DNA of 64,000 bases, from NCBI RefSeq assembly GCF_030036535.1, contig NZ_CP080388.1, positions 1,116,001 through 1,180,000 of the forward strand, written 5' to 3'. The notes beneath the pieces were generated by a model. That model saw only the letters and a list, made by a program, of their open reading frames with translations, was not told the DNA's origin and searched no databases. The stretch comes from Agrobacterium cucumeris. Its GTDB lineage: Bacteria > Pseudomonadota > Alphaproteobacteria > Rhizobiales > Rhizobiaceae. Positions 2,117 to 23,992 of this stretch are shown here, in pieces. How positions within the stretch are numbered: the first letter of the stretch is position 1; each line of letters starts with the position of its first letter. The position numbers were made by a program, and so were the translations under genes.

Positions 2117-3052
2117 CTAGACGACCGGCGTCGGCAAATCTTTCCCCGCAAAATGAGCGTCCAGATTAGCGAGAACCAGAGCGCCCATTTCCAGCCGCGT
2201 TTCATGGGTCGCAGCGCCGATATGTGGTGTGAGAACCACATTGCGCATGCCGAACAGTGCCTCGGGAACATGCGGTTCGTTCTCGAAGACATCGAGCGCC
2301 GCACCTTTCAACCCACCCGCCATGAGAATATCGACCAGCGCCTTTTCATCGACGAGCGATCCTCTGGCGACATTGATGAGGGCCCCGTCCGGCCCCAGCG
2401 CCTCCAGCACCTCTCGGTTGACGACATGTTTCGTCTCCGACGTCGCCGCCGCTGCGACGATCAGGACATCGCACGCACTCGCGAGTGACACCGCTGTCGA
2501 ATGATATTCATAGGCCACGTCCTGCTTCTGTCGGCTGAAATAGAAGATTTCCGCATTAAAAGCCTCCAACCGTACCGCAATGGCACGACCTATGCGGCCA
2601 AGCCCGTAAATGCCGTAACGCCGCCGCGAGGCCTTGTTGCCGAGCGGCATCTCGCTTCTTTTCCATGCACCGGAGCGGACATGGTGGTCCGCATTGACGA
2701 GTTGGCGCAGCAGCATGACACAAAGACCGATGGCAAGATCGGCCACATCTTCGGTCAGCACATCCGGTGTGTTCGTCACCCTGAAGCCGCGTGCGCGGGC
2801 CTGATCGAGATCGACCTTGTCAAAGCCGACGCCGTTGATCGCGACGATTTCAAGAGCGGGCAGGCAGGCAGCGAGTTCAGGGGCGACCCCGATATGGCCG
2901 CCGGTAACGACAGCCTTTATCGACGCCGCCTCCGCCTGCAGAAACGCCTGTTTGTCGGATATTTCGTGCCATCGATGGACCCGGAAGCGCTTTTGCAGTT
3001 CAGCTTCTATCTGTGGCTGAAGCGGATAGGTTTGCAGAAGATCGGGCTTCAT
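2117..3052 (-). CDS. D-isomer-specific 2-hydroxyacid dehydrogenase
   Basis: A 311-residue NAD(P)-dependent dehydrogenase of the glyoxylate/hydroxypyruvate reductase family, of usual length. The nucleotide-binding motif GLGRIG is near residues 150-155. The catalytic triad is complete: Arg230 (NVARGS), Glu259 (DVFENEP) and His277 (TPHIGAA). It is cytosolic and interconverts a 2-oxo acid and the D-2-hydroxy acid. It is the last gene of a long operon holding a tripartite carboxylate transporter, a DenD-like enzyme and an SDR, which fits reduction or oxidation of an intermediate of an imported hydroxy acid. The exact substrate is not readable. Confidence 0.9.
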   Translation of the reverse strand: MKPDLLQTYPLQPQIEAELQKRFRVHRWHEISDKQAFLQAEAASIKAVVTGGHIGVAPELAACLPALEIVAINGVGFDKVDLDQARARGFRVTNTPDVLTEDVADLAIGLCVMLLRQLVNADHHVRSGAWKRSEMPLGNKASRRRYGIYGLGRIGRAIAVRLEAFNAEIFYFSRQKQDVAYEYHSTAVSLASACDVLIVAAAATSETKHVVNREVLEALGPDGALINVARGSLVDEKALVDILMAGGLKGAALDVFENEPHVPEALFGMRNVVLTPHIGAATHETRLEMGALVLANLDAHFAGKDLPTPVV

Positions 3053-3061
3053 GCGCGCTCC

Positions 3062-3817
3062 TTAGCCGCGACCGACGAAAGGCATGCCGCTCGCCATCAC
3101 GGTCATGGTCAGCACATTCGCTTCAAGTGGCAGCGAGGCCATGTGGACCACGGCCTTGGCGACGATGCCGGCGTCGATGGTCGGCTCAATGGCGGTGCTG
3201 CCATCCGCCTGCAACACGCCGGTCGCCATGGCGCGGGTCATCTCGGTGCTGGCATTGCCGATATCGATCTGCCCGCAGGCGATGTTGAACGCCCGACCGT
3301 CCAGAGCGGCGGATTTTGTAAGTCCGGTAATGGCGTGTTTGGTCGCTGTGTAAGGCGCGGACCGCGGACGCGGCGTGGTGGCCGAAATCGAGCCATTATT
3401 GATGATGCGCCCGCCCTGTGGTGACTGCGCCTTCATCTGGTGAAACGCCGCCTGCGTGCAGAGGAAAGCGCCAGTGAGGTTGGCCCCGACCACCGCGTTC
3501 CAGGTTTCGAACGGCACGTCTTCGATATGGACCGCCGGTGCCGACATGCCGGCGTTGTTGACCAGAAGATCGAGACGGCCGAAACGACCGGTGACCTCGG
3601 CGAACAGCCGTTCGACATCGGCCGGAACGGAAATATCGGCCGCGACGGCCAGAACGCGGTCTCGATGTTCGCGCCATTCGCCGACAGCGGCGTCCAGAAT
3701 CTCACGCCGCCGCCCCGTGATCGCAACGCTGTAACCATCTTCCAGAAGCGCCTCGGCAATCGCCTTGCCGACGCCTGTTCCTCCACCCGTGACGAGCGCG
3801 ATCTTTCCCCCACTCAT
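3062..3817 (-). CDS. Short-chain dehydrogenase/reductase (SDR)
   Basis: A 251-residue classical SDR. The cofactor-binding motif TGGGTGVG is at about residues 10-17, followed by NNAGMS near 88, a catalytic Ser and YTATK near 158-162. It lies 9 bp before the 2-hydroxyacid dehydrogenase, and its start overlaps the stop of the DenD-like gene by 4 bp, so it belongs to the same operon. The likely role is oxidation or reduction of a hydroxyl group on the imported acid. It is not a close paralogue of the SDR at 1131-1934. The substrate is unknown. Confidence 0.88.
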
Positions 3818-4800
3818 GCTGTTTTCCCTTCCAGTTCATCTTCCACATGCGCCTGAATGATTTCGGCAAAGGATGTTTCCGCCCGGAAGCCGAGGGACAG
3901 AGCGAGCTGCGGATCGTAATCCTCGGCCCAGCCGTCGACGATCCGGATGATCCGCTCGTCGGGAACACGCTTGATAAGCGCCACAGCCTTTTCCCCAGCG
4001 AAGGCACGCAGAGCCTCGATCTCGTCGGCAACCGTGGCCGAAAGCCCCGGCATGATGAGATTGCGACGAACGCCAAGCCCGGAAAGATCGACGGTCGCGG
4101 CGCGCAGCAGGAAGGCGACGGCCGAACGCGGGCTGGCGAACCAGTGGCGCACGGTATCGGCAACGGGCAGCACCGCTTGCTGGCCCACCAGCGGTTCGCG
4201 CAGGATATTGGAGAAGAAGCCGGAGGCGGCCGCGTTCGGCTTGCCGGGGCGGATGCAGATGGTGGGCAAGCGGATGCTGACGCCATCGAAGAAACCACGA
4301 CGGCTATAATCCGCGAGCAAAAGCTCCACGATCGCCTTCTGCGTACCGTAGCTGGTCAGCGGAGCCGTCAGGAACTCATCGCCGATCACCTTCGGGAATG
4401 GCGAGCCGAACACGGCGAGCGACGAGCAGAACACCACGCGCGGCCGGTATCCGTCCTTCTGATGCTCCAGTCGAATGGCTTCGAACAGCGAACGTCCGCC
4501 ATCGAGATTGATACGATAGCCCTTCTCGAAATCGGCCTCCGCCTCGCCCGAAACCACGGCGGCGAGATTGAAGATCACATCCGGCCGTTTTGCGATCAGC
4601 TTTTCGGCCACGCCGGCATTCGACAGATCGCTGCGCTCGAGGGTCACCGTGCCGCCAAAACCTTTCGGTGCAACCGGCTCGAAAACATCCGTCAGCGTCA
4701 TTTGGCTGATCTTCACACCGCCAAGCGTTCCATCCGCGGCAAGGCGTTGTGTCAATTTACGGCCGATCATTCCGGCCGCGCCGATTATAAGAATATGCAT
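3814..4800 (-). CDS. denD: DenD-like NAD-dependent epimerase/dehydratase-family dehydrogenase (possible D-erythronate dehydrogenase)
   Basis: A 328-residue extended SDR. The N-terminal motif GAAGMIGRK (residues 7-15) and the YGTQK catalytic motif in the middle mark the epimerase/dehydratase family. Overall layout and the tetronate-type context match D-erythronate dehydrogenase (DenD), which oxidises D-erythronate to its oxo form in four-carbon acid-sugar catabolism. The kinase and decarboxylase partners of that pathway (OtnK, OtnC) are not in this operon, so the route here may differ. The ATG at 4800 is preceded by AAAGGTG. It is translationally coupled to the SDR downstream. The family assignment is firm; the substrate is inferred. 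Confidence 0.68.
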
Positions 4801-4842
4801 GGTTCACCTTTGATTGACCGGCATTGCCGGCTCGATTGATTG

Positions 4843-6354
4843 TCAGTCCTCGTCACCCTGAAATACCACTTCGCGGCGGCGCATGATCGCCGGCATCGCC
4901 ATCATGATGACGACGATGGCAGACAAAGCGAGCAGGGTGGCGCTGATCGGATGGGTGACGAATGTCGAAAAACTACCCTGCGAGATCAGCAGCCCGAGGC
5001 GCATGTTCTGTTCCAGAAGCGGACCAAGCACGAAGCCCAGCACCAGAGGTGCCGGCTCACAGCCAATCTTGCGCAGGAAGAAGCCGACGATGCCGAAGAC
5101 CGCGCAGAACAGAACATCGACGACGCTGTAAGACAGGCCATAGGCGCCGATGGCGCAGAACATCAAAATGGCGGGGCACAAAAACCGGTAGGGAATGCCG
5201 AGAAGGCGAACCCAGATGCCGATCAGCGGCAGGTTCAACACCAGAAGCAGCAGATTGCCCACCCACATGCTGGCGATCAGCCCCCAGAAAAGGTCTGGCC
5301 GCGACTGCATGACTTCAGGTCCCGGTGTAATGCCCTGGATCATCATCGCGCCTACCATCAGCGCCATCAGCCCGTTGGCGGGAATGCCGAGCGTCAGAAG
5401 CGGAATGAAGGAGGTCTGCGCGCCGGCATTATTGGCGCTTTCCGGCCCCGCCAGCCCTTCGATTGCGCCCTTGCCAAACCGGGACGGATCCTTGGCGATC
5501 TTGCGTTCCAGCGCATAACTCGCGAACGAACTCATGATCGCACCACCACCGGGCAGCACGCCGAGGAAGGAGCCGAGCGCGGTACCGCGCAACACGGCGG
5601 GAAAGGCCTGTTTGAAATCCTGCCGGGTCGGCATCAGCGATCCGGTCTTTGCTGCCCCTGCATCCCGCTCCACGCCCTGCTGCAGGTTGAAGAGAATTTC
5701 GCTGACGCCGAGCAACCCGATGGCAAGCACGACGAAGTCGATACCGTCGAACAGTTCCGCCATGCCGAAGGTAAATCTTTGCTCCCCGGATGTCGGATCG
5801 ATGCCGACGAGGCTGAGCGCGATACCGAACGCGACCATGCCGACCGCCTTGACCGGTGATCCGCTCGACAGGAACACGGCAAACAGCAACCCGAAGATCA
5901 CGAGACTGAAATAATCGGCCGGCCCGAAGGCGAGCGCAACGGCAGAAAGCGGCTTTGCGACAACGACGATCAAGACAGTCGCTACCGTTCCAGCAAAAAA
6001 CGACCCGAGCGCCGCCGTGGCCAGCGCCACACCCGCCCTGCCCTGCCGGGCCATTGCATAACCATCGATGCAGGTGACGACGGACGAGGATTCGCCCGGC
6101 AGGTTGACGAGGATCGCCGTTGTCGAGCCACCATATTGCGCGCCATAAAAAATGCCCGCGAGCATGATCAGCGCCGCCGTATCCGGCATCGTATAGGTGA
6201 TGGGCAGAAGCAGCGCGACGGTGGCGGAAGGGCCGATGCCCGGCAGGATGCCGATCATCGTGCCGAGCGTGACGCCGAGCAGACAGTAAAAAAGGTTTAT
6301 CGGCGTGACGGCCACACCGAAACCGAGAACGATATTGGAAAGAAGATCGGTCAT
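4843..6354 (-). CDS. tctA: Tripartite tricarboxylate transporter, large permease subunit TctA
   Basis: A 503-residue integral membrane protein with about 10-12 hydrophobic segments. It carries the conserved TctA features: an N-terminal GILPGIGPSATVALLLP segment and a second proline/glycine-rich repeat, GVLPGGGAIMSSF, near residue 265. It forms the secondary-active channel that takes substrate from the periplasmic protein TctC. Its ATG overlaps the stop of tctB by 4 bp. The transporter family carries citrate, aromatic acids and other carboxylates; neighbours here point to a hydroxylated carboxylate. Confidence 0.95.
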   Translation of the reverse strand: MTDLLSNIVLGFGVAVTPINLFYCLLGVTLGTMIGILPGIGPSATVALLLPITYTMPDTAALIMLAGIFYGAQYGGSTTAILVNLPGESSSVVTCIDGYAMARQGRAGVALATAALGSFFAGTVATVLIVVVAKPLSAVALAFGPADYFSLVIFGLLFAVFLSSGSPVKAVGMVAFGIALSLVGIDPTSGEQRFTFGMAELFDGIDFVVLAIGLLGVSEILFNLQQGVERDAGAAKTGSLMPTRQDFKQAFPAVLRGTALGSFLGVLPGGGAIMSSFASYALERKIAKDPSRFGKGAIEGLAGPESANNAGAQTSFIPLLTLGIPANGLMALMVGAMMIQGITPGPEVMQSRPDLFWGLIASMWVGNLLLLVLNLPLIGIWVRLLGIPYRFLCPAILMFCAIGAYGLSYSVVDVLFCAVFGIVGFFLRKIGCEPAPLVLGFVLGPLLEQNMRLGLLISQGSFSTFVTHPISATLLALSAIVVIMMAMPAIMRRREVVFQGDED

Positions 6355-6803
6355 GGCAGCAACGGTATCCTCTGTCCGAGGCCGACAACGAAAATGAGGA
6401 TGCAGGCAAGAATGAGCACCGCCGAAAGCAGCAGAACTTCAACCGGCCGGATCCTGCCATAGGCGATGCAGGCGAGCACGATCAGCACGAAAGCGGCGGC
6501 AATGAAGCCCAATGGCTCGATCAGCAGCGCAAAACCGACAATGCCGGCGACCGCCAGAAACGGACGCATTTTCGGCGCCACCCAGGCTTCGGACGGTGTC
6601 TTCCCCAGCAAATCCTGCAAAAGCAGCGTGATGCCGAGTGCGAACATTAAAGCCGCGATGACCGTCGGCATATAGCCGGGTCCGGGCTGGAAATTAGTGC
6701 TCATGCTCAGCGGCCGCGCGCCGTAATAAAGCCCCGCGGCGGCCACCAGAAAGAAAGCCCCGGACAGAATATTCGCCGTCAGTTTCGAGCCGTGTTCGGC
6801 CAT
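6351..6803 (-). CDS. tctB: Tripartite tricarboxylate transporter, small membrane subunit TctB
   Basis: A protein of about 150 residues with four predicted membrane helices, the standard TctB size. The start at 6803 is chosen because a strong AGGGGAG Shine-Dalgarno lies just upstream; the open frame extends further 5' but would overlap the RraA-like gene. The product partners TctA in the inner membrane. Its stop overlaps the tctA start by 4 bp. Confidence 0.9.
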   Translation of the reverse strand: MAEHGSKLTANILSGAFFLVAAAGLYYGARPLSMSTNFQPGPGYMPTVIAALMFALGITLLLQDLLGKTPSEAWVAPKMRPFLAVAGIVGFALLIEPLGFIAAAFVLIVLACIAYGRIRPVEVLLLSAVLILACILIFVVGLGQRIPLLP

Positions 6804-6876
6804 GATTATCTCCCCTCCATATTGAGAAATACGCCGCGCCTCCCGACACGGCGTATTCAGATGCCGGATTGCTGGC

Positions 6877-7545
6877 TCAGTCGGCCCAGACACATCCCTT
6901 CGAGCGCATCATTTCGTAGCGATCCTCGATATCCATCTTGCCCTGACGGTGCAGTTCCATCATGTGGTTCTCGTGATCGTCGCGCTCCCGGCAGGCCTTG
7001 ACGAGTTTCGAGATATCGCTCTCGCGAACGACGACAACGCCGTCATCATCACCGCAGACGATATCGCCGGGGCTGATCAATTCGCCGCCCACCACGACCG
7101 GATGGTTGATGGTGCCGAGCGTGTCCTTTGAGGTGCCCTTCATGCAAAGGCCGAGTGAGAAAACCGGGAAACCGATCTCGCGCAGACCCTTTCCATCACG
7201 CACGGCGGCGCTGACCACGAAGCCGACAATGCCCTTGCCGATGCAGGCGGCAGCCAGCACATCGCCGAAGCCGCCCTGATTGGGATTGTCACCGCCATCG
7301 ATGACCAGCACGTCACCGGGCTTTGCCAGATTGATGGCCTCGAAAATCATCAGATTGTCGCCGATATGGCATTTCGCGGTGATCGCAGGGCCGCAGATTT
7401 TCAAGCCCGGCTTGATCGGCTTGATACGATAATCGAGCGCGCCAAGCTTGCCCTGCGCCTCATGAATGGTGGCGGGGCTGAACTTGCTGATCGCCTCGAC
7501 ATCGGCCCTCGAAGGGCGCTGGAAATTGCGGATGACATGGGCCAT
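6877..7545 (-). CDS. RraA-like / HMG-CHA aldolase-family protein
   Basis: A 222-residue protein of the RraA/class II pyruvate aldolase fold. Typical features are a GD loop (residues around VIDGGDNPNQGGFGDVL), the conserved AAVRD with the catalytic-site Arg-Asp, and a C-terminal GDIVCGDDDGVVVV strand. The family includes 4-hydroxy-4-methyl-2-oxoglutarate/4-carboxy-4-hydroxy-2-oxoadipate aldolases and the RNase E regulator RraA. Placement between tctC and tctB argues for a catabolic lyase or decarboxylase rather than an RNase regulator. The start at 7545 is preceded by AAAGGAAC; the longer frame has no ribosome site. Confidence 0.82.
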   Translation of the reverse strand: MAHVIRNFQRPSRADVEAISKFSPATIHEAQGKLGALDYRIKPIKPGLKICGPAITAKCHIGDNLMIFEAINLAKPGDVLVIDGGDNPNQGGFGDVLAAACIGKGIVGFVVSAAVRDGKGLREIGFPVFSLGLCMKGTSKDTLGTINHPVVVGGELISPGDIVCGDDDGVVVVRESDISKLVKACRERDDHENHMMELHRQGKMDIEDRYEMMRSKGCVWAD

Positions 7546-7641
7546 TGGCCGGGTTCCTTTCAACAGTGGGTCATGCCCGGACCAAACGCGGCCCAAGCGT
7601 CATTTTGATTAGGGGTGAGAGAAGCGGTCGGTACCGGCCGC

Positions 7642-8595
7642 TTATTTTGTCCAGGGCTTGCTTTTCCAGAGCTCGGCCAGATTGGCGTTGCCCTTCTTGA
7701 GCGCCTCGGCAAATTCGGCCTGGGTCAGCGGCAGCATGGTCAGTTCGCGCTTTTTGGCGTCGGCAAGATAATCCGGGTCCTTCAGCGCCTTCTGGAAGGC
7801 ATCAACCAACTTTGCCTCCACATCCTCAGGCAGACCTTTGGGCGCTCCGAAACCGGCAAGCAGGCTGAACTGAACATCGTAGCCGGCCTCCTTGAAAGTC
7901 GGAACGTCAGGTGAAAGCGGCGAGCGCTCGGTACCTGATGTGGCCAGTACACGAAGTGCGCCGGAACGATTGTCGGCAAAAACCTCGTTGAGGTTCATGA
8001 AACCGAGCGTGACGTGGTTACCAAGCATGGCGAGCCTTGCCGGTCCGCCGCCATTGAAGGGTACGAAGTTGAGCTTCACGCCCGCCGCATCTTCAAACAG
8101 CAGAGCAGTGATCTGGCTCGGATGACCGATGCCGGTCACGCCGACGACGACCGGGTTCGCCTTGGCCGCTTCGACGAATTCCCTGGCGGTCTTGATCGGC
8201 GACACCTTGTTGACGGTCAGCGCCAGATCACCGCCGATCTGGTTTGCGAGCGGCGTGAAGGCGTCCTCCTTGTAGCTGGCGTTGCCCTGCACGATCGGCG
8301 AATACATGGACGGAAAATTCAACGCACCGATGGTGTAGCCATCAGGCTTGGCATTGGCGATATAGGTTGCGCCGATCAGCCCGCCGGCACCTTCGCGGTT
8401 TTCCACCACGACCGATGTGCCGAGATATTTTTCAAGATAGGGCACCAGCGCCCGCGACTGGATATCGGTGCCGCCACCGGCCGGATAACCGATGACCAAC
8501 GTCACCGGCCGCTCCGGATATTCCGCCGCCGCCCCTCCCGCAGCAAAGATTCCCGCTGCCGCCAACACACCAAGCAGAGATGTCTTCAAACGCAT
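7642..8595 (-). CDS. tctC: Tripartite tricarboxylate transporter, periplasmic substrate-binding protein TctC
   Basis: A 317-residue exported protein. A Sec signal peptide (MRLKTSLLGVLAAAGIFAAGGAA) ends near residue 23 and the mature part starts with YPERPVTLVIGYPAGGGTD, the hallmark of the TctC/Bug family. It binds a carboxylate in the periplasm and delivers it to TctAB. The start at 8595 is set by a GGGGAGGAAA ribosome site. It is the first transport gene after the LysR regulator, 95 bp downstream of the regulator's stop on the same strand. Confidence 0.93.
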   Translation of the reverse strand: MRLKTSLLGVLAAAGIFAAGGAAAEYPERPVTLVIGYPAGGGTDIQSRALVPYLEKYLGTSVVVENREGAGGLIGATYIANAKPDGYTIGALNFPSMYSPIVQGNASYKEDAFTPLANQIGGDLALTVNKVSPIKTAREFVEAAKANPVVVGVTGIGHPSQITALLFEDAAGVKLNFVPFNGGGPARLAMLGNHVTLGFMNLNEVFADNRSGALRVLATSGTERSPLSPDVPTFKEAGYDVQFSLLAGFGAPKGLPEDVEAKLVDAFQKALKDPDYLADAKKRELTMLPLTQAEFAEALKKGNANLAELWKSKPWTK

Positions 8596-8689
8596 ATCTT
8601 TTCCTCCCCGATACGCTTTCACCGGGGAGGCTAGGAACAAGCCATCAACAACACAAATACCGAGTTTTCAAACTATCCATACAAATCTT

Positions 8690-9577: not shown

Positions 9578-9775
9578 GCCCGCTTCCACCTCCCGCCGGT
9601 TCAAGAGGTCATCATGACACCAAATCGCCGCCATGACCTAGGGCAAAAAGCCCTTTTCCGCGGAAGGTGGGCAATGGGGCAAGTGATGGGGTAAGACAAG
9701 ATTCTTATGACAGCCGGCTAAGGCTTTTCTCTGCTTCTTCCCCATGACACGGTCCTGGCTGCGATGGGGAGCGGA

Positions 9776-10693
9776 ATGGATCCTAAGACCGGTATTTTGC
9801 TCAAGCTGACGGCCATGCTGGCATTCACAGTCATGTCCGCCTGTGTGAAGGGCCTGGACGGGGCGATCCCGGTTGGCGAAGTTGTCTTCTGTCGGGGATT
9901 TTTTGCCCTCATTCCCCTCTGTCTCTGGTTCATCGCCTCGTCCGAGCGGATAACCGTGCCGGCCCGGAAAAACATCGGCAGCCTGCTCGCGGGCAGTTCG
10001 GCCGGGCTGGGCGGCATGTTCTTCGGCTTTCTGGCGCTCGCCTATCTACCGCTGGTGAATGTCACAGTGTTGAGCTACACGACGCCGCTTTTCACCATCA
10101 TGCTGGCAGCGCTGCTCTTGCGCGAAAAGGTGCGGATTTACCGATGGTCCGCCGTGCTCACCGGCTTCATCGGCGTCTTTATTACCTTGTCACCCAATCT
10201 GGTCTTTGATGCCGCATCAGGCCCGACCCAGATCGACGGCGTTGCAATGATCGGAACCGCACTGGCACTGACCGGTGCGCTTTGCGCTGCCTTTTCCTCC
10301 ATCGCTGTCCGCCACCTGAACAGTATCGAAAAGCCGTCACGCATCGTGCTCATCTATACGCTGACGGGAGTTGTCGCCGGCTTCACCACGATCATATTTG
10401 GATGGAAAATGCCGGATTTTCACCAGTTCCTGCTGCTCGCTGGCGGCGGCCTCGCCGGCGGCATCGGCCAGATCACCATGACGCTCAGCCTGCGGCATGC
10501 CCAGGCCTCGCTGCTCGCGCCTTTCGATTATACGACGATGATCTGGGCGATCGCCCTCGGTTATCTCCTCATGGCCGAAGTTCCGACGGGCGCGACCATC
10601 GTCGGCGCACTGACAGTCATTGCTGCCGGACTGTTCGCCATGTGGCGCGAAAACCGGCTGGCGAAACAACCCATCACGGAGCCGAAAGCGTAA
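9776..10693 (+). CDS. DMT-superfamily EamA transporter
   Basis: A 305-residue inner-membrane protein with ten hydrophobic segments arranged as two EamA repeats, typical of drug/metabolite exporters. The ATG at 9776 follows GGGGAGCGG. The protein starts MDPKTGILLKLTAMLAF, very like the N-terminus of the convergent gene at 10674-11600, and the two proteins share stretches throughout (for example ASLLAPFDYTTMIWA). They are clearly paralogues. The 3' ends overlap by 20 bp. The substrate is unknown. Confidence 0.9.
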   Translation: MDPKTGILLKLTAMLAFTVMSACVKGLDGAIPVGEVVFCRGFFALIPLCLWFIASSERITVPARKNIGSLLAGSSAGLGGMFFGFLALAYLPLVNVTVLSYTTPLFTIMLAALLLREKVRIYRWSAVLTGFIGVFITLSPNLVFDAASGPTQIDGVAMIGTALALTGALCAAFSSIAVRHLNSIEKPSRIVLIYTLTGVVAGFTTIIFGWKMPDFHQFLLLAGGGLAGGIGQITMTLSLRHAQASLLAPFDYTTMIWAIALGYLLMAEVPTGATIVGALTVIAAGLFAMWRENRLAKQPITEPKA

Positions 10694-11600
10694 GCTCATC
10701 GGTGATACGCTTTTTATGCAGCCGCCTTTCCCGCCATAACGTGAACAAGCCGGCAGCAACCACGATCGATGCTCCCATAATGGTGGTGAGCGCCGGCACC
10801 TGATCCATGAAGGTGTACCCAATCAACAGCGCCCAGATCATCGTCGTGTAATCGAACGGCGCCAGCAGCGACGCCTCCGCATAACGCAAGCTGAGCGTTA
10901 CCAATATCTGCGCGGTTCCGCCGATGAGACCGGTGCCGATCAGCAGTGCCCATTGCCACGCGGTCGGCATTGTCCAGCCCATCCCGATGCTCGCAAAACC
11001 GATGACGGTGGTGAGCAGGGTGAAATAGAAGATGATCGCGCCGGTATTTTCCGTCTGCGTCAGATGCCGGATCTGGATCATCGATATTGCGGAGAAAAAA
11101 GCCGCCGCGAGCCCGAAAAGGCCGCCGAGCATGGCGACGCGGGTGCCAGAAGTGATATCCGCAACATCGAAGGAAAAATGTGGCGACAGGATCAGCACGA
11201 TGCCGCAAAGCCCGAAGACCACCGCGGTCCAGCGGTACATCCTGACGACTTCCTTCAAAAGCAGCACCGCCAGAATGACCGTGAAGAGCGGTGTCGCGTA
11301 GCTGATGGCCGTAGCATCGGCGAGCGGAATATAGGCCAGCGCCAGATAGCTGAAAACCATGCCGCCGGTGCCGGAGAAACTCCGCACCAGATGCCCGCCA
11401 ATGTGGCTTGTGGCCACCTGCCTCCGGAAACCGCCCTGCGAAGCCATCCACAGACAGAGCGGCAGCATGGCCACCGCCGACCTGAAAAAGACGACCTGGC
11501 CGATGGGGATCTCGCCCTTGAGACCGCTGATACAGGCGCCCATCAACACCAGAGCAAGTGCTGCGGAGATTTTAAGGAGAATGCCTTTGCGGGGTTCCAT
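10674..11600 (-). CDS. DMT-superfamily EamA transporter (paralogue of the convergent gene)
   Basis: A 308-residue inner-membrane exporter with two EamA repeats and about ten membrane segments. The start MEPRKGILLKISAALAL at 11600 has GGAACG upstream; the longer open frame adds a non-hydrophobic tail and is unlikely. The sequence is close to the protein at 9776-10693 in both repeats. The two genes face each other and overlap by 20 bp at their 3' ends, which suggests an inverted duplication followed by divergence. The substrate is not known. Confidence 0.9.
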   Translation of the reverse strand: MEPRKGILLKISAALALVLMGACISGLKGEIPIGQVVFFRSAVAMLPLCLWMASQGGFRRQVATSHIGGHLVRSFSGTGGMVFSYLALAYIPLADATAISYATPLFTVILAVLLLKEVVRMYRWTAVVFGLCGIVLILSPHFSFDVADITSGTRVAMLGGLFGLAAAFFSAISMIQIRHLTQTENTGAIIFYFTLLTTVIGFASIGMGWTMPTAWQWALLIGTGLIGGTAQILVTLSLRYAEASLLAPFDYTTMIWALLIGYTFMDQVPALTTIMGASIVVAAGLFTLWRERRLHKKRITDELTLSAP

Positions 11601-11795
11601 GGTTCGTTCCTTCGGACGTCTTTGAACCGTTTCACCACGCAAAGGCTGGATATCAAACCTCAAAGCAGTGTCCATAGGAACTTCGTCTGACCCCATTAAT
11701 GCTGCCCACATGGTAGCTATTGCTGATGGACAGGCTGCGGATTCCGCTCCGTTTGCCCGTCGCCGTGGGGATACAAAAAGACGTTGGAAACCAAT

Positions 11796-12260
11796 ATGGA
11801 TCTGGAAAAGATCAAGAAACTGATCGAGTTTGTCGGCTCTTCGCGAGTGTCCGAATTGACCGTGAGCCAGGAGGGAACCACGGTCCGGATCATTCGTGAA
11901 AACAGCGCCGTTTCACTGCAATCGCCATCCCCGCAGCCCCAGCCTGTTCCGGTGGCGCAAACAGCATCCGAGACACCGCGCGCCGAAGAACAGGCGCCGG
12001 CCTCCACCGTCACCGCTCCGGTACCATCCGGCATCGTCGCAGCGCCCTCATTCGGTCTTTTCCATCGCGCGCCAAGCCCCGGCACGCCGCCTTTCGTCGA
12101 AGCCGGCGATGAGGTCAGGCATGGACAGGAACTCTTCATCATCGAAGCAATGAAGGTGTTCAACACCGTGAGAGCCGAGCGCAGCGGCAGGATCGCCAGA
12201 TTCATTGCCAATGACGGCGAAGATGTCGAACTCGGACAGCCGGTGCTGGAGTTCGAATGA
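11796..12260 (+). CDS. accB: Biotin carboxyl carrier protein (AccB-like)
   Basis: A 154-residue biotin carboxyl carrier. A short N-terminal helix is followed by a Pro/Ala/Gln-rich linker (about residues 45-80) and a C-terminal biotinyl domain in which the lysine of EAMKV is the biotin attachment site. It has the thumb-type PSPGTPPF segment of AccB. The ATG at 11796 follows GGAAA; an upstream in-frame TTG exists. It heads an operon with biotin carboxylase and pxpBCA, without carboxyltransferase genes accA or accD, so it probably serves a dedicated carboxylase and not fatty-acid synthesis. Confidence 0.92.
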
Positions 12261-13651
12261 TGAACGCGTCACTCCCAAAGGCAGCGGCCGAACAAAGAGC
12301 ATTCGACAGTGTCCTTATCGCCAATCGTGGCGAGATCGCACTGCGCGTGCAACGCGCCTGCCGCGAACTCGGCCTGAAGACCGTCATGGTCTATTCGGAA
12401 GCCGATAAGGACGCAGATTATCTGAAGGCGGCCGACACCGCCATCTGCATCGGCCCCGCCTCTCCCGGCCAGAGCTATCTCAACGCGCCGGCCATATTGC
12501 TCGCAATGGAGCTGACCGGCGCTGGCGCGGTTCACCCCGGTTATGGTTTTCTATCCGAAAGAGCGTCTTTTTCGGAGGCCGTGGAGGCGGCGGGAGCGGT
12601 CTTCATCGGCCCACGCGCCGACGCCATCCGCACCATGGGTGACAAGATCGCAGCGAAGCGGGCGATGATGGAGGCTGGCGTGCCCTGCGTTCCGGGCCCC
12701 GATTCCGCCCTGCCGGATGACATGGCCGAAGTCTCGAAAATCGCCGCCGACATCGGTTATCCCGTCATCGTCAAGGCGGCCGGCGGCGGCGGTGGGCGCG
12801 GCATGCGCGTCGTTCGAGAGGCTTCCGCCCTTCAGGATGCCGTTCTCGTCACCCGCGAGGAAGCAAGCCGTGCTTTCGGAACGCCGGAACTCTATATCGA
12901 GAAATTCCTCGAACATCCGCGTCATGTCGAAATTCAGGTTCTCTGCGATGGCCAGGGCGGCGGCGTCTGGGTGGGGCTGCGCGACTGCTCGATGCAGCGC
13001 CGGCACCAGAAGGTCGTTGAAGAAGGCCCTGCCATCGGCATCCCGCCTGATGTGGCCGCTTTCGTCGGCAATCGCTGCGTCGAAGCCTGCCGCCAGATCG
13101 GTTATCGCGGCGTCGGTACCTTCGAGTTTCTTTATGAAAACGGTGAATTCTATTTCATCGAAATGAATACCCGCCTGCAGGTCGAACATCCGGTCACGGA
13201 AATGACGTCAGGTGTGGATCTGGTGCGCCAGCAGCTTCTCGTCGCTCTTGGCCATCCGCTCGAGATTTCGCAGGAAGACATCACCTGCGAAGGGCATTCG
13301 ATCGAATGCCGCATCAATGCCGAAGACCCCTATAATTTCATTCCCTGCCCCGGTCTGATAACGGCCCTTCACCTGCCGGGCGGCCCCGGCGTGCGGGTCG
13401 ATACCCATGTGACGGCGGGTTATCGGGTTTCGCCCCACTACGATTCCCTGATCGCCAAGCTCATCGTCCACGCGCCGACGCGCGAACAGGCGATTCTGCG
13501 CATGCGCCGCGCGCTTGGCGAAATGCGCATCGAAGGCGTCTCCACCAACCTGCCGCTACATCGGGAAATATTGGACGACCCGGCCTTCTCCGAAGGCGGC
13601 ACGGATATTCACTACCTCGAACATTGGCTTGCAGCGCGGAGTGCCCAGTGA
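12257..13651 (+). CDS. accC: Biotin carboxylase (AccC-like)
   Basis: A 464-residue ATP-grasp biotin carboxylase. The N-terminal motif [11 protein letters not shown], the glycine-rich ATP loop ([12 protein letters not shown]), the biotin/bicarbonate-site segment [14 protein letters not shown] and the C-terminal B_C domain are all present. It carboxylates the biotin on the carrier protein with ATP and bicarbonate. The ATG overlaps the stop of the carrier gene (ATGA). The association with PxpB/PxpC, which share folds with the carboxyltransferase part of urea carboxylase, suggests a special carboxylation of an amide or lactam. This role is inferred. Confidence 0.93.
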
Positions 13652-14088
13652 AACGACAGCCTGTTTCCATATCCCGCTACAGCAAGCCCGGCACGATTGC
13701 CGATCTTGCCGCTCACCTCGAGCGCAACAACGTCTCCGCCATCGAGATCGAGACCCCCGATGGGTCACTGAAGATCGTTGCCATGGCAGGCGGTCAGGCC
13801 TCTGCGGCACAGCAGCCCATTGAAGCGACCAAAGCGCCGGTAAAGGCGGGGGATATTCTTGCCCGTGCACCGATGGCCGGCATCTTCACAGCCGCCCATC
13901 CGCAGCGCCCAGACCGGGCGGTTCAGGCAGGACAATCCGTAGCGAAAGGCGAGATCGTCGCATTCATCGCGGCTGGACCCGTGCTTGTTCCGGTCATCGC
14001 CGAAAAAGCCGGCACCGTCAGCGAAATCGTGGCGGAAACTGGTGTGCTTGTCGGCTATGGCTCCACCCTTCTCAAGACCGAAACATGA
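13648..14088 (+). CDS. BCCP-like protein lacking the biotinyl lysine
   Basis: A 146-residue protein with the same plan as AccB: an N-terminal helical segment with [13 protein letters not shown], a linker and a C-terminal biotinyl/lipoyl-like domain (ARAPMAGIF to YGSTLLKTE). Where AccB has the EAMK biotinylation motif, this protein has AAGPVLVP, so no lysine is available. It therefore looks like a structural or regulatory homologue. The GTG start at 13648 overlaps the accC stop (GTGA), and the pxpB start overlaps its stop. An ATG-less alternative upstream TTG frame is less likely. Confidence 0.8.
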
Positions 14089-14798
14089 TGGTGACGTCGA
14101 TGAGCAACCTCCCGCTGAAAACGCCCCACCTCACCCCCGCCCATCTGGGCCTGCCGAAAATCTCGATGATAGGCAACAGGACCTTTCTGATCGAAGCGCC
14201 CGGCGAGCTGGACCTGCCCGCCCAGCGGCGTATCTGGGCGCTGACGCGTGCGCTGAAAGATCGTCCCGAGGTGCTGGAACTCATACCCGGCATGACCAAC
14301 CTGCTGATCGTGCTGCGCGGTACGCCTGAAGATGCCGGGCATCTGCAGGACGAGCTTCTCGACCTCTGGCAAAGGACGGCGGAGCTCGATCTTCTCGGCA
14401 AGACCATCGAAGTGCCCACGACCTATGGCGGCGAACACGCCATCGACCTTGCGGCGATCTGCGATTATTCCGGCCTACCCGATAAGGAGGTCGTGCGCCT
14501 TCACTTCGAGCGCACCTATACGGTTTTCGCCGTCGGCAGCGCGCCCGGTTTCGGTTATCTCGGCGGTCTCGATCCACGCATTTTCATGCCGCGCAAGAAA
14601 GTCCCTTCGCTGCGCATGCTGAAGGGCATGGTGACGATCGGCGGCATGCAGTCCGGCATCTCGGTTCTGACCGGGCCAAACGGCTGGAATTCGCTGGGTT
14701 TCACCGAAATCACCATGTTCGACGCCACGGCCGAACAGCCAGCTGTGCTGGCGCCCGGCGACCGGGTTCGCTTCCTTCCCGAAAGGATCGAACTATGA
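14085..14798 (+). CDS. pxpB: 5-oxoprolinase subunit PxpB (KipI/AHS1 family)
   Basis: A 237-residue protein of the allophanate hydrolase subunit 1 (AHS1/KipI) family. Conserved features include FAVGSAPGFGYLGGLDP and the C-terminal GGMQSGISVLTGPNGWNSLG block near the substrate site. In PxpABC it forms part of the ATP-dependent enzyme that opens 5-oxo-L-proline to L-glutamate. The AHS1 fold is also half of the carboxyltransferase domain of urea carboxylase. It overlaps its neighbours on both sides by 4 bp. ATGs at 14088 and 14100 are alternative starts. Confidence 0.92.
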   Translation: MMVTSMSNLPLKTPHLTPAHLGLPKISMIGNRTFLIEAPGELDLPAQRRIWALTRALKDRPEVLELIPGMTNLLIVLRGTPEDAGHLQDELLDLWQRTAELDLLGKTIEVPTTYGGEHAIDLAAICDYSGLPDKEVVRLHFERTYTVFAVGSAPGFGYLGGLDPRIFMPRKKVPSLRMLKGMVTIGGMQSGISVLTGPNGWNSLGFTEITMFDATAEQPAVLAPGDRVRFLPERIEL

Positions 14799-15793
14799 TC
14801 CATATTCTTGCCTGCGGACCGCTGAACACAGTGCAGGATCTCGGCCGCGCGGGTTACCGCAATATCGGCATCACCGCCACGGGCGCGATGGACCCGATTG
14901 CGCTCAGGGTCGGCAATCTTCTCGCCGGCAACGGCGAAGAGGCCGCGGCGATTGAAATCCAGACCTTTCCTTTCCGCATCGAATTCGAAGAGGCGCTGAC
15001 CTTCGCGGTAACCGGCGCGGATTGCGCTGCACGGCTCGATGGTGCGGATTTACCGCCTTACTGGTGTGTGCGGGCCGAGAAGGGTCAAATCCTCGAGCTT
15101 TCGACCCCGCTGAAAAATGCGCGGGCCTATCTCTGCCTTCAGGGCGGCGTCGATGTTCCGGTGGTGATGGGATCGCGCAGCACTTCTCTTCGCGGCTCAT
15201 TCGGCGGTCACGAAGGACGGCATCTCACCACTGGCGACAGGTTGCCCGTTCTGCCATCCGAGTCACTCGCTCTGCCTGCAAGCGGCCTTGGCCTTACGCC
15301 GCTTGCAGAAGCGATGCCGGACATGTTTCCGGTGTCCGACACCGGCGAATTGCTGCTGAGAGCCATTCCAGCCGCCGAACATGATCTTTTCGGCGACAAC
15401 GCCGAACGTTTCTGGTCGGAAGCCTGGAAAATCACCTCACAGAGCGACCGCACCGGTTACCGGCTGGCCGGAACACCGCTGACCCTTTCGGCTCCCGTGG
15501 AACTACGTTCCTATGGCGTCATCCCGGGCGTGGTTCAGGTGCCGCCAAGTGGCGAGCCGATCATCCAGATGAGCGACGCCAACACGGCCGGCGGTTATCC
15601 CAAGATGGCCGGCATCATCGACAGTGACCTGTGGCGTCTCGGCCAGGCCCGCATCGGCAGCCGCATCCGCTTCGTGCAGGCAACGGTACGGGAGGCGCTG
15701 GAGATCGAGAAGGCGATCGACGCCTATTTCGCGGATATCCGCAGAACCCTGCCGCTGGTTACCGCCGCACTCGGCACGCTGACAAAACGATAA
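14795..15793 (+). CDS. pxpC: 5-oxoprolinase subunit PxpC (KipA/AHS2 family)
   Basis: A 332-residue protein of the AHS2/KipA family, of normal length. It begins with the characteristic GPLNTVQDLGRAGYR segment and carries the internal DRTGYRL and GVIPGVVQVPPSGEPI blocks. It partners PxpB as the second half of the 5-oxoprolinase ATP-dependent component and matches the second half of a urea-carboxylase carboxyltransferase domain. The ATG overlaps the pxpB stop by 4 bp. Confidence 0.93.
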   Translation: MIHILACGPLNTVQDLGRAGYRNIGITATGAMDPIALRVGNLLAGNGEEAAAIEIQTFPFRIEFEEALTFAVTGADCAARLDGADLPPYWCVRAEKGQILELSTPLKNARAYLCLQGGVDVPVVMGSRSTSLRGSFGGHEGRHLTTGDRLPVLPSESLALPASGLGLTPLAEAMPDMFPVSDTGELLLRAIPAAEHDLFGDNAERFWSEAWKITSQSDRTGYRLAGTPLTLSAPVELRSYGVIPGVVQVPPSGEPIIQMSDANTAGGYPKMAGIIDSDLWRLGQARIGSRIRFVQATVREALEIEKAIDAYFADIRRTLPLVTAALGTLTKR

Positions 15794-15818
15794 TCCTGAA
15801 GAACAAGGAGAGGGAACC

Positions 15819-16586
15819 ATGAAGATCGATGTTAATTCCGACATGGGCGAAGGTTTCGGCGTCTATAAGGTCTGCGACGACGAGAAGCTTATGGAAGTCG
15901 TCTCTTCGGCGAATGTCGCCTGCGGTTTCCATGCCGGCGATCCGGAAATGATGGCGCGCATGGTGCGTCTGGCCAAACAGAACGGCGTCGGCGTCGGCGC
16001 CCATCCCGGCCTCGCCGACCGTCTCGGCTTCGGCCGCCGCGAAATTCCCGTCGACGCGGAAGAAATGGAACAGCAGGTTCTCTACCAGCTCGGCGCGCTT
16101 TCGGCGATTGCCAGGGCGCAGGAGGTTGCGCTCTCCCATATCAGCTTCCATGCCGCCATGGGCAACATGATCAATCGCGATGCGGCGCTTGCCGAACGGA
16201 TCATGAAAAAGATCAGGGCGGTCGATCCCAATCTCATCGTCTTTTCGATGCCGGACATGCTGATCGAAAAGGCGGCGCTGGATTGCGGGCTAAAAGTGCT
16301 CAATCTCTTCCTCGCCGACCGCGCCTATGATGTGAAGGGCCAGCTCGTGCCACGCAAGCTGCCCAATTCCGTCATCAAGGAAGAGGGAAAAGTTCGCGCG
16401 CGGGTGCGCCAGTTTCTGGAAAAAGGCACGGTCACGACCATCGAGGGCGAGATCATTCCCGTTCGCGCCCGGTCGATCCTTGTTCACAGCGACACACCCG
16501 GCTCGCTGGAGCTTGCCCGCACGGTGCGTAGCGAAGTGGAAGCCTGCGGCGGCAGCGTCGTGCCGGCTCGCGAAGTGATCGCCTGA
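15819..16586 (+). CDS. pxpA: 5-oxoprolinase subunit PxpA (LamB/YcsF family)
   Basis: A 255-residue LamB/YcsF-family protein. It starts MKIDVNSDMGEGFG, the family signature, and has NVACGFHAGDP and GVGVGAHPGLADRLGFGRR blocks with the acidic and histidine residues of the deacetylase-like metal site. It works with PxpB and PxpC to hydrolyse 5-oxoproline. A clear AAGGAGAG site lies upstream of the ATG. It is the last gene of the operon; a strong hairpin follows at 16623-16665. Confidence 0.95.
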   Translation: MKIDVNSDMGEGFGVYKVCDDEKLMEVVSSANVACGFHAGDPEMMARMVRLAKQNGVGVGAHPGLADRLGFGRREIPVDAEEMEQQVLYQLGALSAIARAQEVALSHISFHAAMGNMINRDAALAERIMKKIRAVDPNLIVFSMPDMLIEKAALDCGLKVLNLFLADRAYDVKGQLVPRKLPNSVIKEEGKVRARVRQFLEKGTVTTIEGEIIPVRARSILVHSDTPGSLELARTVRSEVEACGGSVVPAREVIA

Positions 16587-20688: not shown

Positions 20689-21120
20689 CTATACTCCCGT
20701 CGCGTTGAATACGGCACGAGGCATCGCGTTGAGCCGAACGACGGGGTCGTCCGAGCCCTATGACTAGAATTTGCTGGGTGTGCTCCCTGTCCAGGTATCC
20801 GGTCTTTTGCCGATACCCGTCGCATGTTTCTGCTTGCTCGCGTCGGTTACCTCTTTGGGCAATATTGCCCGACGCGTCGTTCCCTTGGTTGTTACGCAGA
20901 GCTTAGGGTCTAAGCCGACGGGCTGCATAATATTTTATTGCTCTGAGGTCATCGCATACGAATATGGACTTCACATCCGTCTGAAGGCGATGCATCAAAA
21001 TCCTGTATGACCTCACATCGAAGTCGTATTGGGGAAAAGGCGGAAAATTCCCGTAACCTCTTTGTCATGCACTGGCATCGCGACGATGCCTGCCTTCACC
21101 GTTACAATCGGAAATCATCC
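20689..21120. promoter_or_regulatory. Divergent regulatory region with a 14-bp palindrome
   Basis: This 432-bp gap separates the ABC importer operon (leftward) from the aminotransferase (rightward) and must hold both promoters. At 20857-20870 lies the perfect palindrome GGGCAATATTGCCC, directly followed by the 8-bp palindrome GACGCGTC. A weaker inverted repeat, GGTATC...GATACC, lies at about 20797-20820. These are candidate operator sites. No gene or convincing RNA was seen. Confidence 0.45.
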
Positions 21121-22323
21121 ATGCCCACTATCGCCCAGCGCCTCAACAACGTCACCGTTTCGGCCTCGCTCGCCATGACCCAGAAAGCCCGCGACCTTGC
21201 AGCTCAGGGCATCAAGGTCATCAGCCTGTCTTCCGGCGAACCGGATTTCCCGACCCCTGCCCATGCGGTCGAGGCGGCGCATGCGGCAGCCCTTGCCGGC
21301 GATACGAAATATCCGCCGGCTGACGGAACGCCTGCTTTGCGGGCCGCGATCCAGCGAAAGTTCAAGCGCGACAACAATCTCGACTACGATCCAAGCCAAA
21401 TTCTGGTGGCAGGCGGCGGCAAACAGATCATCTTCAACGCCATCATGGCAACCTGCGACCCAGGCGATGAAGTCGTCATCCCCGCACCGTCGTGGATCAG
21501 CTATGCCGATATCGTCAAGTTTGCCGGAGCGGTGCCTGTGCCGGTGGTTTGCCCGGAGAATAACGGTTTCCGCCTGCGGGCCGAAGATCTCGAGGCCGCC
21601 ATTACCCCGAAGACCAAATGGCTGCTTTTCAACTTCCCCAACAACCCCACCGGTGCCGCCTGCTCCCGTGCGGAGATGAAAGAAATCGCCGAGGTCATGC
21701 TGCGGCATCCGCATGTCTGGATCATGACTGACGACATGTATGAGCACCTCATCTATGACGACTTCGAATTCTGCACCATCGCCGAGGTCGAGCCACGCCT
21801 TTACGACCGCGTCCTGACCGTCAACGGCGCATCGAAGGCCTATGCGATGACCGGCTGGCGCCTCGGTTTCTGCGGTGGCCCGAAAGATCTCATCAAGGCC
21901 ATCAGCAACGTCAACACCCAGAATAGCGGCGGTGTCGCCACCATCGTGCAGGCTGCCGCCGTTGCGGTTCTCGACGGCCCGCAGGATCTGCTGAAAGAGC
22001 GCGCCGATATCTATAAGACGCGCCGCGACTTCGTGCTCGGCAAGTTGGCCGAGATCGACGGCCTTCGCTGCCACAAGCCCGAAGGCGCCTTCTATATCTT
22101 CCCGAACATTGCGGCGCTGATCGGCAAGACCACGAAGGGCGGCACGAAGATCGAGAACGATACCGATTTTGTCATGGCGCTGCTCGCCGAACATCACGTT
22201 GCGACGGTGCAGGGCGCGGCCTATGGCCTGAGCCCCTTCTTCCGGCTTTCCTATGCCACGAGCATGGAGAACCTCGCCGAAGGCTGCGCCCGCATCGCCG
22301 AATTCTGCAACGGAATGAAATAG
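21121..22323 (+). CDS. Pyridoxal-phosphate aminotransferase (aspartate/aromatic class I)
   Basis: A 400-residue fold-type I aminotransferase. The N-terminus has SLSSGEPDFPTP, the middle NNPTGAACS, and the PLP-binding lysine is in NGASKAYAMTGWRLGF near residue 240. This matches the class of aspartate/tyrosine/aromatic aminotransferases of rhizobia. The start MPTIAQRLN at 21121 is typical of the family; the longer frame upstream is not. It lies 10 bp before an SDR gene and opposite a polyamine/opine-type importer, suggesting use of the amino group of the imported compound. Confidence 0.93.
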   Translation: MPTIAQRLNNVTVSASLAMTQKARDLAAQGIKVISLSSGEPDFPTPAHAVEAAHAAALAGDTKYPPADGTPALRAAIQRKFKRDNNLDYDPSQILVAGGGKQIIFNAIMATCDPGDEVVIPAPSWISYADIVKFAGAVPVPVVCPENNGFRLRAEDLEAAITPKTKWLLFNFPNNPTGAACSRAEMKEIAEVMLRHPHVWIMTDDMYEHLIYDDFEFCTIAEVEPRLYDRVLTVNGASKAYAMTGWRLGFCGGPKDLIKAISNVNTQNSGGVATIVQAAAVAVLDGPQDLLKERADIYKTRRDFVLGKLAEIDGLRCHKPEGAFYIFPNIAALIGKTTKGGTKIENDTDFVMALLAEHHVATVQGAAYGLSPFFRLSYATSMENLAEGCARIAEFCNGMK

Positions 22324-23086: not shown

Positions 23087-23992
23087 TTATTTCAGCGTTT
23101 CCGCCAGCTGCAGCAGTATTTCCTTCACGGCAAGCGCGGGCTCGGAGAGCGGCGTATTATCCGATACGCAAAAGGACAGGGTTTCCTCGATCATCGGGCT
23201 GGCGATCTGCCGGACGACAATTTCCTCATTGGATTCCGCCACGATACGGTCGGCGATAGCCTTGGGCGTTATGGTCGCGCCAAGCCCGGCATCCACACCA
23301 CGTGCGATGGTCCTTACCGATTCCAGCTCGGCCATCACGAGCAGATCCTTGCGGCTGCGGGTGAAGGCGAGATTGATGGCCCGGCGCACGAAATTATAGG
23401 TCGGCGGCAGAAGAAAGGGCAGATATGCCAGATCAGCAACTGTGATAGGTGCATCGCCGGGCTCCACGCCGAAGCTGCGATGCACGACCAGCACGAATTC
23501 CTCACGCAATAACGGCGTGAACTTGACGCCACGGATCGGCCCGGTGCCGTGGATCAACCCCATCTCCAGACGACCATTCATGATCATCTGGCTATAGGGC
23601 TGGCTGACGCTTTCCGTGATGTGCAGCAGAATGCCGGGATGAAGCCGTTTTGTTTCCTCCATCAGACGCAGCGCCAATGTGGCGGCGCTGCTGAAGGGCG
23701 CAAGCCCGACCGATACCTTGCCGGACAGCACCGCGCCCGCTTCCAGCGCCTCCGCCTGCGCCTGCTCCATCTGACGCAAAATCACCTGGGCATGCCTGTA
23801 AACGACCTTGCCAGCATCGGTCATGACGACGCCCTGCTGGCTTCGGGTCAGCAGTTTCTGGCGGAAATGTTCCTCGATGCTCGCCAGCTGCTGGCTCAGC
23901 GCCGGCTGGGCGATATGCAACACATCCGCCGCTCTTGTTATGCTCCCCATATCGACAATCGTTATAAACGATTTCAGACGCCTGATATCCAT
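23087..23992 (-). CDS. LysR-family transcriptional regulator
   Basis: A 301-residue LysR regulator. It begins MDIRRLKSFITIVDMGSITRAADVLHIAQPALSQQLASIE, the winged-helix DNA-binding domain, and continues with the effector-binding domain. This subfamily resembles nitrogen-assimilation (Nac/Cbl-like) and ModE-unrelated LysR proteins. It is convergent to the aminotransferase-SDR pair, which it may control; no LysR box was verified. Confidence 0.92.
   Translation of the reverse strand: MDIRRLKSFITIVDMGSITRAADVLHIAQPALSQQLASIEEHFRQKLLTRSQQGVVMTDAGKVVYRHAQVILRQMEQAQAEALEAGAVLSGKVSVGLAPFSSAATLALRLMEETKRLHPGILLHITESVSQPYSQMIMNGRLEMGLIHGTGPIRGVKFTPLLREEFVLVVHRSFGVEPGDAPITVADLAYLPFLLPPTYNFVRRAINLAFTRSRKDLLVMAELESVRTIARGVDAGLGATITPKAIADRIVAESNEEIVVRQIASPMIEETLSFCVSDNTPLSEPALAVKEILLQLAETLK

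Follow-up and report, generated by a model that had tools for sequence, protein, structure and literature searches.

A pxp operon with its own biotin carboxylase in Agrobacterium cucumeris: a candidate split biotin-dependent lactam-opening enzyme

Why would genes for the subunits of a 5-oxoprolinase overlap with genes for a biotin carboxylase and its carrier? The question is raised by a six-gene operon at 11796..16586 of a 64,000-nucleotide stretch of the Agrobacterium cucumeris genome (contig NZ_CP080388.1, positions 1,116,001 to 1,180,000), the whole of which is referred to here as the window. An original prediction placed pxp, biotin carboxylase (BC) and biotin carrier genes here, and profile matches bear out this gene content and these positions, with all of the genes on the + strand. 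The genes were described as fused; they do overlap, but there is no fusion. The biotin carrier is likewise present, as a biotin carboxyl carrier protein (BCCP), but there are two carrier-like genes, the second of which lacks the usual biotin site and had gone unrecognised. The operon is composed as follows.

11796-12260, + strand: BCCP; Biotin_lipoyl match, TIGR00531 at 117.8 bits (cut-off 115.2), biotinylation motif EAMKV
12257-13651, + strand: BC of the AccC lineage; TIGR00514 at 650.7 bits (cut-off 626.5)
13648-14088, + strand: lysine-less BCCP-like protein, proposed scaffold or adaptor; Biotin_lipoyl at 32.1 bits, with A-G-P replacing A-M-K
14085-14798, + strand: PxpB, equivalent to carboxyltransferase subdomains C/D; TIGR00370 at 165.5 bits (cut-off 145.55), PF02682 at 197.7 bits, matching E. 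coli YbgJ (5DUD_B)
14795-15793, + strand: PxpC, equivalent to carboxyltransferase subdomains A/B; CT_A_B at 280 bits, with Arg110 and Arg223 in common with urea carboxylase
15819-16586, + strand: PxpA, a diverged ring-opening subunit of the LamB/YcsF type; subfamily NF003814 at 334.7 bits (cut-off 226), PF03746 at 300.8 bits

Four consecutive 4-base stop/start overlaps link the first five genes, and a 25-base gap then precedes pxpA. Among 80 loci related to the window locus, on which all conservation counts for the operon and its neighbours are based, the full six-gene set is present in 74, and order and strand are identical in 72.

We consider it likely that these six genes encode a split biotin-dependent enzyme that opens a lactam ring in a five-step scheme. 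BC would use ATP and bicarbonate to carboxylate the biotin on BCCP, as the intact motifs of both proteins suggest, and the lysine-less protein may join BC and BCCP and help to bring both to PxpBC. PxpB and PxpC together would act as the carboxyltransferase, transferring the carboxyl group of carboxybiotin onto the lactam's ring nitrogen much as urea carboxylase acts on urea. PxpA would then hydrolyse the activated N-carboxylated lactam, with the resulting carbamate losing CO2 to leave an open-chain amino acid, which could be handled by the aminotransferase, short-chain dehydrogenase/reductase (SDR) and aldolase-type enzymes encoded nearby. The operon is a combination of known parts that is uncommon and consistent, and an operon of this type is not named in the literature searched (titles and abstract openings).

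Association of biotin carboxylase genes with pxp loci

The window BC has an apparently complete active site: it matches E. coli AccC at each of 19 residues examined, which we take to be the catalytic ones. It is 59.6% identical to E. coli AccC overall and 53.0% identical to the AccC of its own genome. Seventeen of the 19 positions are identical in every sequence compared, the variable ones being H236 and I287 (E. coli numbering), and the E-A-M-K of BCCP is the same in all 20 sequences aligned.

The genome has seven BC matches, and their locations are informative. One is AccC (C1:1069 kb), with BCCP adjoining and accA and accD elsewhere; two, at C2:733 kb and C2:831 kb, each have a classical carboxyltransferase no more than a few kb away (at C2:731 kb and C2:835 kb respectively); and two, with TIGR01235 scores of 1719.5 and 1721.8 bits (cut-off 1114.45), are pyruvate carboxylases. 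The remaining two adjoin the only two PxpB/PxpC sets in the genome, and PxpA genes are found at the same two places only. As had been noted, accA and accD do not accompany the operon: neither has a match inside the window (C2:1116001-1180000), the genome's accA being at C2:876 kb and an accD-like match at C1:2690 kb. This is a weak argument, because neither gene is seen in the 4.5 kb surrounding E. coli accBC.

The second pxp locus, at about C2:1204-1210 kb (positions 6195-12410 of L025, C2:1198000-1217000), shows a further association with BC. Alongside an Nramp-type transporter and PxpA, it encodes a 'putative hydro-lyase' of the D-glutamate-cyclase type; PxpB and PxpC are fused here, and so are BC and BCCP, in a fusion with the motif EAMKM. 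The transporter presumably resembles YcsG/PxpT, and is 48% identical to the transporter beside the pxp genes of Lactiplantibacillus plantarum. PxpT and PxpI serve only as shorthand labels for the transporter and the hydro-lyase; PxpT is the name given to a 5-oxoproline transporter of Corynebacterium glutamicum (PMC13274462, available excerpt).

The association recurs in other genomes. Of 101 family genomes (its own included), 34 contain matches to the window PxpB, at 41 places, and of the 39 places outside its own genome, all of which were fetched, 23 have a BC as sorted by script; the count is 24 with L116, where BC-BCCP lies within a 1121-residue frame and was mis-sorted, and 27 have either BC or a carrier. 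Across the phylum, 55 of 160 genomes have matches at 76 places. Frames longer than about 1,100 residues were set aside as urea carboxylases and four duplicates (G000, G023) were left out, and 11 of the 48 loci fetched have a BC, three of these being from the window's own family. Only about 0.8 and 0.9 BCs would be expected by chance at the 39 and 48 loci respectively, as estimated roughly from the BC density of the window's own genome and for loci that share descent and so are not independent trials. With BC linkage above this expectation, and with 72 of the 80 loci preserving the gene order, we reject a chance neighbourhood.

Four architectures can be distinguished. Type A, to which the window locus belongs, has split BCCP and BC genes together with the lysine-less carrier; type B has PxpB fused with PxpC and BC fused with BCCP; type D has the order PxpA-BCCP-BC-PxpB-PxpC; and type C has no biotin genes. 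Plasmid loci chosen as examples from the match lists, and not as counts, include one in L. plantarum (PxpB, PxpC, BCCP with AMK, BC, hydro-lyase, PxpA and an Nramp-type transporter), one in the archaeon Halomarina (BC, PxpB, PxpC, a small carrier with VMK, and PxpA), one in Moraxella osloensis (Nramp-type transporter, AccB, AccC, PxpB, PxpC, PxpA and a lysine-less carrier) and an A-type locus with the lysine-less carrier in Bradyrhizobium. For PA0492, PA0495 and PA0496 of Pseudomonas aeruginosa we work with assumed identities. Gene names in PA0492-PA0496 suggest a D-type locus (names taken partly from the excerpted text of PMC5521831).

In a midpoint-rooted BC tree with uneven deep support (0.175 at one node), the AccC lineage includes the A-type BCs as well as E. 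coli AccC; on the same side of the tree the D-type BCs make up a clade of their own, and the two pyruvate carboxylases of the window's own genome have the B-type BCs as their sister group. With the exception of that of L212, the A-type BCs make up one clade, to which the genome's own AccC does not belong. Because of these placements, at least two BC lineages appear to have been recruited to pxp loci, one split and AccC-like and the other a fused BC-BCCP.

The window BCCP and BC both reach their AccB and AccC family thresholds, as they would if a spare acetyl-CoA carboxylase module, serving fatty-acid synthesis, had come to lie in the operon by accident; the accessible part of PMC6249292 similarly links the AccB/AccC-like PA0493-PA0494 with fatty-acid synthesis, although it describes them as genes of unknown function. 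We nonetheless regard a spare module as very improbable, given the other accBC pair in the genome, the distance to accA and accD, the conserved gene order with its catabolic neighbours, and the clade of A-type BCs apart from the genome's own AccC. A partnership between BC and PxpBC in this operon is well supported.

A second carrier without the biotinyl lysine

The product of the third gene retains the BCCP fold and the N-terminal region despite the change of A-M-K to A-G-P, and AMK is absent from all 79 counterparts in the 80 related loci. Decay or frameshift of the gene is excluded by open frames in 79 loci and by conservation of the replacement motif, and the protein also keeps conserved motifs of its own. 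The protein thus seems, from its sequence, to bear no biotin at the usual site. In two loci (L092 and L093) the second carrier has an N-terminal AMKL only, its biotinyl site being without lysine, and the BCCPs of L093 and L131 carry EAMKA and EAMKI respectively; in L096 the lysine-less protein is present only as a match within a 478-residue frame overlapping PxpC. As a query against 150 genomes of the order, the lysine-less protein yields mostly weak matches, read as ordinary AccB.

What could such a protein do? Plant BADC proteins are BCCP-like chains that also lack the biotinylated lysine, a likeness of description and not of sequence alignment, and they belong to the plastid acetyl-CoA carboxylase whereas the second carrier sits in a pxp operon. 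They are reported either as glue in BC-BCCP assembly or as inhibitors (PMC11926652, in part). Because of its descent and this analogy we propose that the lysine-less protein may be a non-catalytic scaffold or adaptor of BC and BCCP; if so, it would be a bacterial counterpart of BADC in a different kind of carboxylase. A variant of the scaffold step, and not exclusive of it, is that the protein acts as an inhibitor by taking the place of BCCP on BC, following the other published view of BADC (same excerpt of PMC11926652). We find this rather unlikely, as the protein is kept in 79 of 80 loci, three of them without BC or BCCP in the fetched stretch, and has conserved motifs of its own. We favour the scaffold role.

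The three loci just mentioned (L174, L177 and L204, from Lonsdalea, Brenneria and an Enterobacterales metagenome-assembled genome) have the lysine-less carrier beside PxpBCA, and may use the housekeeping AccBC. Separately, on a plasmid of Agrobacterium vitis CG78 (L131) BCCP is immediately upstream of the lysine-less carrier and there is no BC match, a situation that differs in its relative L132.

PxpB and PxpC as a candidate carboxyltransferase

The observation that PxpB and PxpC share the folds of the urea carboxylase carboxyltransferase domain stands: PxpC has the fold of this domain, and the two are homologous with conserved residues in common. Urea carboxylase (TIGR02712; Kluyveromyces lactis 3VA7/5I8I) is a single chain, whereas the operon encodes separate subunits together with PxpA and the lysine-less protein, and the TIGR02712 cut-off of 1303.85 is not reached by either BC (479.8 bits) or PxpC (169.4 bits). 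The PxpABC enzymes of E. coli (YbgJKL) and Bacillus subtilis have the same three subunits, to which the operon adds a dedicated BC, a BCCP and the lysine-less carrier. On the PxpC equivalog NF045499 (cut-off 500) the window PxpC scores 290.4 bits and that of the second locus 165.6.

Arg110 and Arg223 are both present in every PxpC of types A, B and D and every urea carboxylase examined, except L212 and L119, while at least one of them is lost in all members of a 21-member clade of C-type sequences. The loci of this clade are pxp loci without biotin genes. Biotin genes are nearby in 36 of the 56 loci with both arginines and in 2 of the 29 without both (Fisher test; 85 of 87 loci, L122 and L233 having no PxpC in the table, and L116 counted as lacking a biotin gene), a result not taken as proof because the loci share descent. 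When the PxpC tree is rooted with urea carboxylase, all A-type sequences but one fall in a single clade; the exception, L212, clusters with PxpC of the E. coli kind. The sister group of the A-type clade consists of E. coli PxpC together with a few C-type relatives, the B-type sequences are another clade that includes one C member (L118), and the D-type sequences branch next to urea carboxylase.

Structure searches identify PDB 9YX5, in which chains named 'allophanate hydrolase subunit 2/1' match PxpC and PxpB and are found together with acyl-CoA carboxylase alpha3. Its title describes a long chain acyl-CoA carboxylase complex of Mycobacterium smegmatis with MSMEG_0435-MSMEG_0436 bound (released 2025-11-26), and a literature search found no paper on it. 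This title and the chain names indicate that homologues of PxpB and PxpC can bind a biotin carboxylase complex. The mycobacterial AccA3 carboxylase is likewise a BC-BCCP-containing enzyme with PxpC/PxpB homologues, with the difference that its BC-BCCP subunit is fused whereas the operon has separate BC and BCCP genes. The excerpted text of PMC4617892 records that MSMEG_0435-MSMEG_0436 rise upon nitrogen depletion. Between them, gene neighbourhoods, genome book-keeping, intact BC sites and 9YX5 give good support to the split urea-carboxylase-like architecture originally suggested, from which we infer carboxyl transfer by PxpBC.

Several observations, besides the shared descent of the loci and the roughness of the chance estimate, weigh against the proposed enzyme. 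No BC lies within the fetched stretch at 37 of the 48 phylum-wide pxp loci; four A-type loci (L094, L095, L097 and L098) have the carrier pair and no BC, and the three enterobacterial loci hold the lysine-less protein with neither BC nor BCCP, again within the stretch fetched. No lysine-less carrier was found at the B-type loci or at the D-type loci (L250, L252-L254), where its absence may be a limit of the search. Positions 239, 248 and 250 of PxpC differ between urea carboxylase and types A, B and most of C: eight urea carboxylases have Asp (8/8), Asp (7/8) and Thr (8/8), corresponding to Asp239, Asp248 and Thr250, and the window PxpC has Ser239, Gln248 and Pro250. The evidence from 9YX5 consists of its title and chain names only. 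The E. coli genes are annotated as 5-oxoprolinase components and have no adjoining BC, and PxpABC of B. subtilis and C. glutamicum is described as an ATP-dependent 5-oxoprolinase in which phosphorylation by PxpBC is assumed (PMC13274462, available excerpt).

This assumed phosphorylation, together with the missing BC at so many of the phylum-wide loci, raises the alternative that PxpBC phosphorylates the lactam directly with ATP and that BC and BCCP serve in bicarbonate handling, regulation or the like. PxpB and PxpC of the window, like those of E. coli, show no Walker A motif (other ATP-binding folds lay outside the search); PxpC has the urea-carboxylase carboxyltransferase fold and its homologue is part of the 9YX5 complex; and linkage to BC recurs with different BC lineages. 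Direct phosphorylation therefore seems to us distinctly unlikely, and we note that the way in which PxpBC uses ATP is a stated assumption in the excerpted text of the 2026 paper (PMC13274462).

Returning to carboxyl transfer, a broader proposal, which we put forward tentatively, is that PxpBC is generally a biotin-dependent carboxyltransferase and that prokaryotic 5-oxoprolinase, including that of E. coli, spends its ATP on N-carboxylating the lactam instead of phosphorylating it, with the BADC-like subunit organising the complex of the operon described here. Organisms without a dedicated BC would then borrow the housekeeping AccB-AccC (or AccA3), the exception being the PxpC clade without Arg110 and/or Arg223. 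Should PxpBC be carboxyltransferases, the mechanism attributed to a widespread enzyme would have to be revised, and many genes labelled as acetyl-CoA carboxylase would be misnamed. The 5-oxoprolinase of Pseudomonas putida reportedly has a component A of 64 and 51 kDa polypeptides and a component B of 82 kDa (PMC8453981, in part). The window proteins have predicted masses of 50.1 kDa (BC), 25.6 kDa (PxpB) and 35.4 kDa (PxpC), so the 51-kDa band would fit a BC, a lead and not evidence.

PxpA, the neighbourhood and the substrate

The original prediction took 5-oxoproline or a related lactam as substrate, and for 5-oxoproline itself this is not borne out. E. coli PxpA keeps Lys103, Glu157 and Cys215, which we chose to treat as defining for 5-oxoprolinase, and the operon's PxpA lacks all three, having Ser109, Leu163 and Leu221 in their place. 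The three residues are kept in 67 of 67 PxpA proteins of types B, C and D, and are all absent from 14 of 14 in A1, 2 of 2 in A2 and 1 of 8 in A3, the other seven A3 proteins retaining them. By motif pattern, the lysine site is Ser in 69 of the 80 loci and Gly in 8, with 3 having no match.

The neighbourhood also differs from that of the second pxp locus. Its conserved members are as follows.

2-430, - strand: second amino-acid ABC (ATP-binding cassette) permease, truncated by the window edge; 257.7 bits, 73/80 loci
430-1134, - strand: amino-acid ABC importer permease; 439.4 bits, 72/80 loci
1134-1934, - strand: SDR oxidoreductase; 480.8 bits, 74/80 loci
6880-7596, - strand: RraA/CHA-HMG aldolase family protein; NF006731 at 202.7 bits (cut-off 179), PF03737, 238.6 bits, 70/80 loci
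21007-22320 (without stop codon), + strand: pyridoxal phosphate-dependent aminotransferase; 759.5 bits to the R. johnstonii neighbour, 79/80 loci
23090-23992, - strand: LysR-type regulator; 398.4 bits, 80/80 loci, with the R. johnstonii counterpart above the NAC cut-off

An ABC ATPase and a substrate-binding protein are each found in 74 of the 80 loci. Some of the window neighbours lie at distances of as much as 10 kb, a Tct-type module being interposed, and most occurrences of the conserved catabolic neighbourhood are in Rhizobiaceae.

Because of the second pxp locus, the divergence of PxpA and the conserved neighbours, 5-oxoproline is probably not the main substrate of this operon. These neighbours suggest another imported amino-acid-like lactam as the nutrient; a gamma-substituted 5-oxoproline is a guess from the CHA/HMG aldolase family name alone. 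A variant of the proposed enzyme, and not exclusive of it, is that 5-oxoproline itself is the substrate, which would make the complex a second 5-oxoprolinase. PxpA and PxpB do reach their family cut-offs, and in L212 and the Moraxella plasmid an Nramp-type transporter, as in type B, is beside BC and both carriers, so that the A-type architecture itself is compatible with 5-oxoproline. Such a role here appears unlikely to us, since the second locus already has the Nramp-type transporter and the D-glutamate-cyclase-type gene, and the window locus has a PxpA without the Lys/Glu/Cys set and different neighbours.

Two further groups of genes lie in this part of the window. At 2120-8640 (- strand), genes for a hydroxyacid dehydrogenase, two SDR/epimerase-type proteins, TctA and TctC surround that of the RraA-type protein, and look like a separate carboxylate or sugar-acid module inside the neighbourhood. 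To the left of the operon are two related, convergent permease genes of putative DMT (drug/metabolite transporter) type, at 9764-10690 (+ strand) and 10677-11711 (- strand); relatives of the first are present in 13 of the 80 loci.

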